Origin: Deltaproteobacteria bacterium
Lineage (GTDB): Bacteria > Desulfobacterota_B > Binatia > UBA9968
Length of the DNA: 11,026 nucleotides
Direction of reading: 5' to 3'
Assembly (NCBI GenBank): GCA_005879255.1
Contig: VBKY01000192.1
Location: forward strand, 1-11,026
In this document: positions 2,387-5,574 of the stretch, one piece after another
Layout of the letters: the number at the start of each line of letters is the position of its first letter
Numbering within the stretch: the stretch's first letter is position 1
Made by a program: the position numbers and the translations under genes
Notes under the pieces: generated by a model
Told to the model about the DNA's origin: nothing
What the model saw: the letters and a program-made list of their open reading frames with translations, nothing else
Databases searched by the model: none

Positions 2387-2815
2387 CTACGCGCGAAACC
2401 GCCGCGCCTTTCCTGCCGTCAGCAGCTCCTGCTCGAAGTCTTCTCCAAACAGAGGTCCATCGACTGATACGAAGAATGTACATCCCTCAGGCCCAGGAAT
2501 GAGACTTTCTCTCTTGAGCCCCTTGGGCGTGCAAATATAATTTCCCGGCCCAATCGTTTCACCGTCAGAGACAAAATAGCCCTCGAGAACGAGCAGCTCT
2601 GCATTGCCGCCATAACCGTGCTCGCCGAAAGGATTGTAGCCTTCCGGCCAATAAATCAGATACGTTCCTGCCCCGGTGTCGGCGTCAAATCTTAAGACTT
2701 TCAGCTTTCCCTTACCTAGGGAACTTTCCCAGGGGATTTGACCTTTCCACGATTTGAACACAGCAAGATCGTTGTGCCAGATGACTTCGTCGAGATGAAA
2801 TTTTGCGCTTCTCAC
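2387..2815 (-). CDS. Small cupin-like protein
   Basis: 142 residues with a single-domain cupin pattern. GEHGYGGNAELLVLEGYF (residues 64-81) fits cupin motif 1, with His66 and Glu73 as candidate metal ligands, and DGETIGPGNYICTPKG (84-99) fits the following beta turn and motif 2 region. Single-domain cupins bind a metal or small ligand and include dioxygenases, decarboxylases and sensors, so no reaction can be assigned; it resembles the ChrR/DUF4437 type most. The start is GTG, whose bases overlap the TGA of the preceding small gene (GTGA), which implies translational coupling. It is the fourth gene of the radical-SAM operon and is likely cytoplasmic; no signal peptide is seen. Confidence 0.72.
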   Translation of the reverse strand: MRSAKFHLDEVIWHNDLAVFKSWKGQIPWESSLGKGKLKVLRFDADTGAGTYLIYWPEGYNPFGEHGYGGNAELLVLEGYFVSDGETIGPGNYICTPKGLKRESLIPGPEGCTFFVSVDGPLFGEDFEQELLTAGKARRFRA

Positions 2816-3042
2816 GCTTGTACGATCCTCTTGATCTCTGCTTCGACAAGACTCAATTTATCCGGGGCGCGAACGATGTTGCGGTCCACGGTGCAGTCAC
2901 AGCGCCCGCCGTGCTTGAACAGAACGCCATAAATGTGATTTTGTTTAGGGGGCTCTGTTGCATGCCCTTCAACGAGCTCGCGTACGCGCCGATATTTTCC
3001 GTTACAATCTTGATAGGGTATCTCAGCCAGCGCTTCTAGCAT
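2812..3042 (-). CDS. Hypothetical 76-residue protein with three cysteines, coupled to the radical-SAM operon
   Basis: I do not recognise a family. The reading frame opens further upstream, but that extension lies inside the pseudo-radical-SAM gene. The ATG at 3042 has AAGGTG about four bases before it and gives 76 residues overlapping the previous gene by 20 bases. Its stop overlaps the cupin GTG start by four bases. Overlap at both ends and the same strand support a real gene made in step with its neighbours. The protein is soluble and basic in the middle, with Cys13 and a Cys48-Asp-Cys50 pair (GRCDC) and a helix-like C-terminus (about 60-75). It could be a small subunit, adaptor or electron-transfer partner of the radical-SAM pair. 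A peptide substrate is possible but less likely, since there is no evident leader/core layout. Confidence 0.68.
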   Translation of the reverse strand: MLEALAEIPYQDCNGKYRRVRELVEGHATEPPKQNHIYGVLFKHGGRCDCTVDRNIVRAPDKLSLVEAEIKRIVQA

Positions 3043-4201
3043 CTTGCACCTTTTCCATCGAGTTCTTTGCATCCGACTTAAGGGGCGCACCCCGGCCAAT
3101 ATCGTAGACGCCACTATCAGGGTAGCGGCTTCGTCCAGGCCCCATGAGATAACCGATGGGCTCATCCTGCCCGTACTTCACCCAAGCGTCGTACCAGACT
3201 CTGTCAACCTCTAAAAAAAATTCCGTCGCTGGCTGACGCAGGCCGGCTAAAGCTGCAGTCAGTTCCGCACGCCAGTGAATCAGATTCGGAACCACGCCAT
3301 GCATCATAAGAAACCGAATTCCCTCGCTGGTAGAGGCCAAGGCTTCGTCGCTACTTTTGAAACCCGAGGTTTCCGCCATTTCTAGACCTACGGCAAACCG
3401 AGGAAGGGCAGCGTTCCAGCCGTAAACATAAACCTGGTCGAGCAATCGGCGGACCCATTCCTCCCAGCCTATTTTTTTGTTTTCGCCGGGACACAGAAGC
3501 GCAAAAAGCTGCTGATTCCATACTCCAGGATTGGACAGACGAGCCTCGACCCCGTGTCGATGGATACGCTTTTCTATCTCGACTGGCATGGGAGACATCT
3601 CCAGTAGGATCGGCACCTGGTGGCCAATGCGGCCTCGAATGGCGTCGACGTATTGCAAAAAAAACTCTGCCTCTTCTTGCTGATCCATGGAGTCTAAAAC
3701 AGTCTTCCCGCCAAGTAGAATACACGATGGCATCTCTTGCGGTGGGCGTTGCTTTTTAACAAATATTTCCGCGACAGCATCGGCGACCTTGGCAGGGTCA
3801 TGAACTTCGTTGCCAAAGCCAACGGGGCTCACCTGAGCATCGGGCGAGACTACTGCGGAGTAAGGCGTGCCATCGGCGAACATTGCACTTTGATAGGCAG
3901 AATCTTGCGGAAAGGGATGTGCCAAGGCGACAATATCTCCCCCTTCTCTGTCGACCACTTTCAAGTGCTCCCCGTTACTCTCGATTCGATAGGGCGAGTC
4001 GTGTTGTTTGTTGACGCGGATAATCGTCCGGCGCAAAGAATAAGGCCCACCCTCCAACCGCAACAGCCCACGCACATCATCGACTTTCAACTCTCTTTCC
4101 CAAGAAAGGCCGTGGGTTAACAACTCTTCTTTGACAATAGCTTCTTGGGAAAGGTCGGAATAGCGGCTGAAAAGCTCCTCTAGTTTCTTTAGCCTGCTCA
4201 T
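3023..4201 (-). CDS. Degenerate radical-SAM paralogue lacking the cluster cysteines
   Basis: 392 residues, colinear with the radical-SAM protein just upstream. Shared landmarks are GGPYSLRRTI versus GGPYQLRRTI, FADGTPY versus FSDGTPF, the LLGGKT/LNGGTI strand, GWEEWVRRLLDQV versus GRNEWIRRMLDQV, and SEGIRFLMMHGVV versus TEGLRFFMSHGIV. Between FADGTPY (108-114) and HDPAKVADA (134-142) the partner has an extra stretch of about 30 residues carrying all cluster cysteines. Here it is missing, and only Cys160 and Cys237 remain. It cannot bind a radical-SAM [4Fe-4S] cluster in the usual way, so a structural, substrate-binding or regulatory subunit is inferred. The reading frame opens at 4243, but GCAGGA six bases before the ATG at 4201 makes that start better, 23 bases after the upstream stop. 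Confidence 0.82.
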   Translation of the reverse strand: MSRLKKLEELFSRYSDLSQEAIVKEELLTHGLSWERELKVDDVRGLLRLEGGPYSLRRTIIRVNKQHDSPYRIESNGEHLKVVDREGGDIVALAHPFPQDSAYQSAMFADGTPYSAVVSPDAQVSPVGFGNEVHDPAKVADAVAEIFVKKQRPPQEMPSCILLGGKTVLDSMDQQEEAEFFLQYVDAIRGRIGHQVPILLEMSPMPVEIEKRIHRHGVEARLSNPGVWNQQLFALLCPGENKKIGWEEWVRRLLDQVYVYGWNAALPRFAVGLEMAETSGFKSSDEALASTSEGIRFLMMHGVVPNLIHWRAELTAALAGLRQPATEFFLEVDRVWYDAWVKYGQDEPIGYLMGPGRSRYPDSGVYDIGRGAPLKSDAKNSMEKVQDARSAG

Positions 4202-4224
4202 TTTCGGTCCTGCTGTTGGAAAAA

Positions 4225-5574
4225 TTAGTCCCCCATGTCCCATGCGGCGCTGTTGGGATAATGGTTGCGGCCTGGACCGATGGGATGACGGGTTTGGGGA
4301 GGAAGATCGAATTCAACAAGCAGATCGTACCAATTCCGGTCAATCTGGATGAAGTAATCAACGGGCGGTGGCGTTTGGCCGCCAAGCGCCGAAAGCGCCT
4401 CGACGCACCAACTGATGGGACGAACAACAATGCCGTGACTCATAAAAAACCTCAGCCCCTCTGTGGTAGATCTGACTGCTTCTTTAACCGTCTTGAAGCC
4501 CCAGGGCTGAGCCATTTCGACACCGGCGACAAAGCCAGGAATAACATGCCCCACGCCAAATATATCAACTTGATCCAGCATCCGCCGAATCCACTCGTTG
4601 CGTCCGATGTGGCGCGCTTTCCCGGGTGAGATGATTTCAAAGAGATCTTCATCCCAGACTTCAAAGTTCGATGACCGTGAGGTGACTCCAGCTTCTTTGG
4701 CGCGTTTTTCCATCTCCTCGGTCCATGGGATGGACTGAAGCATGATAGGAACTTTATTGCCTGTGCGCTCCCGAACGGCGGCAACGAATGAGAGGTAAAA
4801 CTCTTGCTCGGACTGTTTGCGCAAAATATGTTCGATCGTGCCGCCGTTGAGATGGATCTGGTAAGGGCGCCTCAGCTCAGGAAATCGGGTCCAATCTTCG
4901 ACAATAAACAGGTGGAAGGCGGCCTCGGCGACCTCCTCGGGCTTCTTGGGAGTGATGTAACCGATTTGTCCCAACAGTTTCTTCGTGCGCGCATTCTCAT
5001 TGATGTCGCAAAATTTGCACTCGTCCTCTGGGCCCCAATACTGGCATTGACGAAATACGATGCAGTCACCTCGCTCCTCCAATACATGAGGAAAAGGAGT
5101 TCCGTCAGAAAACTGCTTCTTAAAATAATCCAATGGCGGTTTGCCCCACGGCTTTACGTCAGCAATCAGCTTGCGAGTGGCACGATCTAGGATCCGCGGA
5201 ACCCCGTCGACCACATCAATAAGATACGGGGATGAAGGATTGATCCTCGGGCGCATAATGGTTCGGCGCAGCTGGTAGGGCCCGCCATGCACCTCAATGA
5301 CGTTGGGTAACTTGATCGGCGCCTTTTGATCGTCCATCTTGTCTAGACGACCCTGGTCCCATGAAAAAAGATGATAAGTCTTGAGAACTTCCCCCCCGCC
5401 GAAATTGATCGCCTCGTTCGTGAACATGAATCCTTCGCGCTGCGTGTCCTCTTTGACAATGACCTCGGCATTCACGTCGGGGTAACGCTTGAACAAAGCC
5501 TCGATGTGTTCCTCTCGCGGTTTTACTTCGTGCTCTACACCTAATAGCATGGCTTCACCCCTCTCGTATTTCAT
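4225..5574 (-). CDS. Radical-SAM-like enzyme with CX8CX2C motif
   Basis: 449 residues; first gene of the minus-strand operon. Residues 171-189 run DCIVFRQ-CQYWGPEDECKFC, giving Cys177-X8-Cys186-X2-Cys189 plus Cys171. This fits a radical-SAM cluster site wider than the canonical CX3CX2C; Elp3 (CX9CX2C) shows that such spacing is possible. HLNGGTI (241-247) sits where radical-SAM barrels carry the GGE-type SAM-contact strand, and alternating strand/helix segments continue to about residue 390. The expected role is reductive cleavage of SAM to start a radical reaction on an unknown substrate in the cytoplasm. An N-terminal domain of about 150 residues is shared with its paralogue. Two starts are possible: ATG 5574 (GGAG nine bases before) or ATG 5550 (GGGGTGA about four bases before). 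A divergent promoter and an operator-like palindrome lie upstream. Confidence 0.78.
   Translation of the reverse strand: MKYERGEAMLLGVEHEVKPREEHIEALFKRYPDVNAEVIVKEDTQREGFMFTNEAINFGGGEVLKTYHLFSWDQGRLDKMDDQKAPIKLPNVIEVHGGPYQLRRTIMRPRINPSSPYLIDVVDGVPRILDRATRKLIADVKPWGKPPLDYFKKQFSDGTPFPHVLEERGDCIVFRQCQYWGPEDECKFCDINENARTKKLLGQIGYITPKKPEEVAEAAFHLFIVEDWTRFPELRRPYQIHLNGGTIEHILRKQSEQEFYLSFVAAVRERTGNKVPIMLQSIPWTEEMEKRAKEAGVTSRSSNFEVWDEDLFEIISPGKARHIGRNEWIRRMLDQVDIFGVGHVIPGFVAGVEMAQPWGFKTVKEAVRSTTEGLRFFMSHGIVVRPISWCVEALSALGGQTPPPVDYFIQIDRNWYDLLVEFDLPPQTRHPIGPGRNHYPNSAAWDMGD

Follow-up and report, generated by a model that had tools for sequence, protein, structure and literature searches.

In kinases and proteases it is a familiar arrangement that a live enzyme is accompanied by a dead copy kept under selection. 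Here we describe a candidate pair of this kind among the radical S-adenosylmethionine (SAM) proteins. It lies in a stretch of 11,026 nucleotides from a Deltaproteobacteria bacterium (contig VBKY01000192.1; the whole stretch is called the window here), in which gene A, coding for a radical-SAM protein, is followed on the same strand by gene B, coding for a paralogue that lacks the cysteines of the iron-sulphur cluster (Table 1). The locus resembles the pairs of other families in that a live copy appears to stand beside a dead copy that is kept. A narrow search of titles and the beginnings of abstracts in the open-licence literature found no radical-SAM pseudoenzyme partner and no cluster-less tandem partner, and two papers that contain both 'radical SAM' and 'CX8CX2C' deal, by title, with a DNA polymerase and with iron-sulphur (Fe-S) cluster biosynthesis.

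The product of A matches the NCBIfam model NF045502 variant_rSAM with 149.2 bits, above the curated cut-off of 125, and has the three-cysteine site, whereas B reaches 83.4 bits, mainly through the C-terminal half of the model, and stays under the cut-off together with most of the B-lineage proteins tested. The name of the model gives no function; the enzyme family is known, without an assigned function as far as model names tell. TIGR04043 (MSMEG_0568 family), which we take to be the radical SAM protein encoded in the Nit1C nitrilase cluster, is distantly related to A (37.1 bits, below the cut-off of 303.7). The Nit1C radical SAM protein is placed closest to the biotin synthase-related COG2516 proteins in a part of its published description (PMC1199592). 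Unlike the Nit1C cluster, the window showed no nitrilase among its 10 proteins scanned with Pfam. HydE, lipoyl synthase and biotin synthase are the best structural neighbours of the models of both A and B, at about 9-16% identity, and all three carry the cluster, the site for which is missing in B. A search of PDB chains at E 1, made with A as the query, gave no sequence match.

Loss of the cluster site in gene B

Judged from the alignments, A and B are paralogues, B has lost the cluster site, and the rest of the protein is conserved. The alignment of the two products spans 431 columns with 34% identity (BLASTP E 2e-75), which is far above chance, and both were modelled as radical-SAM-type barrels, that of A being a radical SAM partial triose-phosphate isomerase (TIM) barrel. 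The original prediction had described adjacent colinear paralogues of 449 and 392 residues, with Cys177-X8-Cys186-X2-Cys189 in the one and no such cysteines in the other, and a shortening of about 30 residues at the cluster loop; all of this proved right, the shortening being 29 residues (A 176-204), and the proposed check of the fold came out in its favour. The three cysteines are present in 120/120 A-type rows with the variant spacing CX8CX2C, and a Pfam scan of A at E 1 gave no family, PF04055 included. Ordinary radical-SAM chemistry is most likely for A; from motif and fold, its three cysteines would hold a [4Fe-4S] cluster that cleaves SAM to the 5'-deoxyadenosyl radical. The start of A is ambiguous between Met1 and Met9 (window 5548-5574, minus strand), since a purine-rich stretch lies upstream of both; several relatives are 440-443 residues long.

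B belongs to the superfamily by barrel and by descent, and the cluster motif is absent from it as well as from 19/19 full-length close relatives (P0001-P0019). Two cysteines are left in B, at positions 160 and 237; the relatives have 1 to 5 each, with no C-X4..14-C-X2-C triad in any. A further 29 residues, in runs of 27 and 2, are absent from B around A 56-87. Since the motif-bearing proteins P0020, P0022 and P0062 also lack most of this stretch, the gap is not part of the cluster loss; it characterizes the B lineage as a whole. At its C-terminus B extends 22 residues past the end of A.

Residues were counted by column in 145 rows, namely 120 A-types, 20 rows of the B clade and 5 other rows of the B lineage. 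The A-types are the 120 listed of 284 matches, minus P0062 and plus the A of the window, to which P0025 is nearly identical; the rows exclude P0024, P0147, P0148 and the fragments P0021 and P0145. Twelve columns, those of Glu305, Gly318 and Lys319 among them, are identical in 120/120 A-type rows. In the B clade the three cluster cysteines are gone, and Gly245 is kept in 3/20 rows, Glu305 in 7/20, Gly318 in 6/20 and Lys319 in 7/20; Trp307, Gly340, Gly351 and Gly381 are kept in 20/20 and Gly359 in 19/20. The motif-bearing P0020, P0022 and P0062 have the cysteines, Gly245, Gly318 and Lys319, with Glu305 replaced by Asp in P0022. Two distant motif-free proteins, P0023 and P0146, lack Gly245, Gly318 and Lys319, Glu305 being present in P0146. 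By the secondary structure of A, Gly245 follows strand 240-244 and Glu305 follows strand 299-301; Gly244-Gly245 presumably occupies the place of the radical-SAM GGE motif. In radical-SAM enzymes SAM and the cluster sit on the side of the barrel to which Gly245 and Glu305 are assigned in this way. The joint loss of the cysteines, Gly245, Glu305, Gly318 and Lys319 is what would be expected of a switch to a non-catalytic role.

A search with B returned 24 proteins. Nineteen are the close relatives, all motif-free, at 66-96% identity and 386-396 residues; the others are the motif-bearing P0020, P0022 (CX7CX2C) and P0024, the motif-free P0023 and the fragment P0021. A profile search at E 1e-10 listed 27, the same set minus P0024 and plus P0146 (motif-free), P0145 (a fragment), and P0147 and P0148 (motif-bearing). 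In both searches scoring was confined to roughly 8000 candidates with the most shared words. In the main tree (36 chosen rows, loop columns excluded) the B lineage forms 17 rows on one side of a 100/100 branch, of which 14 are without the motif and three, P0020, P0022 and P0062, are with it. The A of the window falls together with P0026 and P0030 (99/96), within a nine-row clade (100/99) that excludes the B lineage. These placements indicate that the duplication predates the nine-row clade and that the motif was lost within the B lineage. B, as the tree has it, belongs to an older lineage with motif-bearing members; its description at the outset as the inactive paralogue of this very A is corrected accordingly. 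The best tree has two changes of the motif-free state, and the approximately unbiased test does not reject one clade of all motif-free proteins (p-AU 0.233). Long branches are found for P0146 in this tree and for P0023 in another tree, from which 7 of 144 proteins were dropped as near copies or a fragment (P0001, P0003-P0006, P0021, P0025), and the fork between B lineage and A-types is not fixed.

Forty-two columns mark P0020, P0022 and P0062 against the A-types, and at 18 of them conservation in the B clade reaches 90% or more; P0023 has the same residue at 22 and P0146 at 16, differing at 20 and 26. Arg370, Gly371 and Leu374 of B are common to P0020, P0022, P0062, P0023, P0146 and the B clade, and occur in 7%, 11% and 1% of A-type rows. 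With NF045502, 7/8 B-lineage proteins tested fall under the cut-off, P0062 being the exception with 140.2 bits. The motif-bearing P0020 (109.7 bits) and P0022 (104.4 bits) are thus missed by this naming model.

Two other origins of the arrangement were ruled out: a recent duplication of A by the position of the A of the window in the nine-row clade with the B lineage outside, and an assembly or frame error in B by the 19 full-length relatives of the same architecture.

Constraint on B and its pairing with A

Constraint was assessed by comparing B with 13 of its 19 close relatives, against neutral mutation of the B DNA in 100 runs each. In nine of the 13 comparisons the changes were more conservative than in all neutral runs. 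The relatives keep full-length open frames down to 66% identity. Neutral runs acquired 5 to 7 stops on average in the comparisons at 67-76% identity, and where divergence was 24% or more (five comparisons, with full-length relatives), 0/100 neutral runs were free of stops. It should be kept in mind that only open frames enter protein databases and that a single reference is common to all comparisons; the results support, rather than prove, a constraint on B at the protein level. The original prediction of a pseudoenzyme kept under selection is supported in part, by the lost cluster site, the conserved family and the constraint at the protein level; the heterodimer and the positioning of substrate that it also put forward would go beyond these findings. 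The comparisons with P0001, P0004 and P0007 do not exceed the neutral expectation.

The pairing of A with B was seen directly in this window only. P0020 and P0026 share a source and lie on contigs both 3631 long, and P0023 and P0030 likewise share a source and lie on contigs both 281337 long, which in each case suggests the same contig and hence a further pair. In genome sets of four phyla, chosen in part around genomes (the centres and some others) in which a match had been found beforehand, A was matched in 26/297, 34/294 and 11/296 genomes at E 1e-30 and in 3/250 at E 1e-15; none of these 74 carrier genomes has an intact tandem. A broken second copy was observed in Metallosphaera javensis AS-7 (L002) at 12783-13178, about 1.5 kilobases after the intact copy at 9998-11257; its pieces match the first 35 and the last 100 residues of the intact copy, and the first of them contains a stop.

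With B as the query, matches, all distant, were obtained in 4/95 genomes from the G004 phylum (Methylomirabilota). Two of the four (G008:C28:408-1067 and G027:C161:7150-7806) have one in-frame TGA inside the part of the variant radical-SAM gene that was matched, which may be no more than the gene end. A scan of genome contigs gave 12 loci, all distant, with best segments at 24-31% identity, and a scan of viral contigs gave 15 pattern matches with no relative among them. The neighbours of the distant solitary copies showed no common function, Pfam families (E 1e-5) being found for 4/10 proteins, at three loci and of differing kinds; two Streptomyces plasmid contexts were unlike each other.

Explanations for the cluster-less paralogue

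The cluster site of B is lost and yet B is apparently maintained, which suggests that it serves A, or the cell, in some non-catalytic way, the first of these perhaps by partnering A. On balance we think it probable that two active enzymes once worked as a pair, that B is the half that went dead, and that it is still needed as the partner of A. The B lineage would once have borne the cluster motif, and its ancestor would have sat beside A. B would then have lost the cluster loop and several residues invariant in the A-types, being kept as a non-catalytic barrel that may remain bound to A and shape or regulate the active half. The wider proposal, of a two-protein complex in which two ancestral paralogues, both active, gave rise to an active and a cluster-less subunit, the latter a radical-SAM pseudoenzyme kept as obligate partner, with motif-bearing forms (P0020, presumably beside P0026) still extant, is offered more tentatively.

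Several observations weigh against this explanation. Among the matches listed (120 of 284) there is no A-type with an identity to A above 73% and below 100%; the A partners of P0014-P0019 are expected at about 85%, as estimated from branch lengths in the tree, and none is among these matches. Partners at 90% or more may sit in the 69-member 90% cluster of P0025, and the absence for P0014-P0019 may be due to short contigs, or B may be alone there. The original prediction had named single-copy homologous loci as counting against it; for the distant relatives, to which the answer is confined, the copy is single in 73 of 74 carrier genomes, and the remaining one has two copies on different contigs. 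B also evolves faster than A, the three presumed pairs having 68-73% identity in A and 41-48% in B. In the comparison with P0001 the value is below the neutral mean (-1.12 versus -0.45, 16 changes), and P0003 lies merely in the upper tail of the neutral runs. Some residues kept in the B clade are also gone in distant motif-free proteins, Gly381 in P0023 and P0146 and Gly340 in P0146, and at 24 of the 42 columns marking the B lineage conservation in the B clade falls short of 90%.

The missing partners of P0014-P0019 would equally suit the main rival, in which B works apart from A as a sensor, a scaffold or a repurposed barrel with new chemistry, and shares the operon by chance. The B clade has 175 columns at 95% or more identity (20 rows), and Glu274, Asp110-Gly111 and Glu20/Lys24 persist in 19/20 or more, so that a pocket may remain; the co-directional arrangement of A and B 23 bases apart and the two further presumed pairs nevertheless favour a link with A, and we regard a separate role as rather unlikely. 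That B is a functionless remnant in decay might be read from its faster evolution and from P0001, P0004 and P0007, which lie in or under the neutral range, but this is hard to reconcile with full-length frames at 66% identity where neutral runs gather stops, with nine comparisons past all neutral runs and with the 175 near-invariant columns, and it is considered very improbable. Least probable of all is that B, whose barrel is retained, carries out radical-SAM or iron-sulphur chemistry through other ligands or a cluster shared with A, as the triad is absent throughout P0001-P0019 and Gly245, Gly318 and Lys319 are mostly lost too.

Genomic context and significance

Table 1. Features of the A/B locus, in window positions
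Feature	Position	Strand	Basis
Gene A, radical-SAM protein of the variant (CX8CX2C) family, 449 residues (441 if Met9 is the start)	4225..5574	-	open reading frame, NF045502 match, fold
Codons of the A cluster motif Cys177-X8-Cys186-X2-Cys189, after strand 170-174	5008..5046	-	motif scan, secondary structure
Codons of A residues 176-204, 29-residue stretch without counterpart in B	4963..5049	-	alignment
A Gly244-Gly245, after strand 240-244	4840..4845	-	secondary structure, column counts
A Glu305 to Pro317-Gly318-Lys319	4618..4662	-	column counts
Gap from A stop to B start, 23 bases	4202..4224	-	sequence
Gene B, cluster-less radical-SAM paralogue, 392 residues	3023..4201	-	open reading frame, BLASTP to A, fold
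B Gly128/Phe129, point where the cluster loop is missing	3815..3820	-	alignment
B-lineage C-terminal R-G-x-x-L, B residues 370-374	3080..3094	-	column counts
Cupin_7 (ChrR-like) protein, same strand, about 200 bases downstream of B	2387..2815	-	Pfam

From their arrangement, A and B are likely to lie on one transcript, and the Cupin_7 protein is a possible third member of the unit. By Pfam, the minus strand also carries a zinc-binding-dehydrogenase-family oxidoreductase and a coenzyme A (CoA)-transferase, and the plus strand an NMT1-type binding protein and an amidohydrolase. These neighbours point to small-molecule metabolism in general and to no particular substrate. Searching plasmids with the amidohydrolase, and E. 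coli with the oxidoreductase, did not place the locus taxonomically.

Partners such as B fall under the cut-off of a family model that is tuned to complete motif-bearing enzymes. Since one lineage contains both relatives that have the cluster site and relatives that lack it, the loss can be traced and tested, and the comparison set for this is the motif-bearing P0020, P0022 and P0062 against the B of the window, P0001-P0019, P0023 and P0146.
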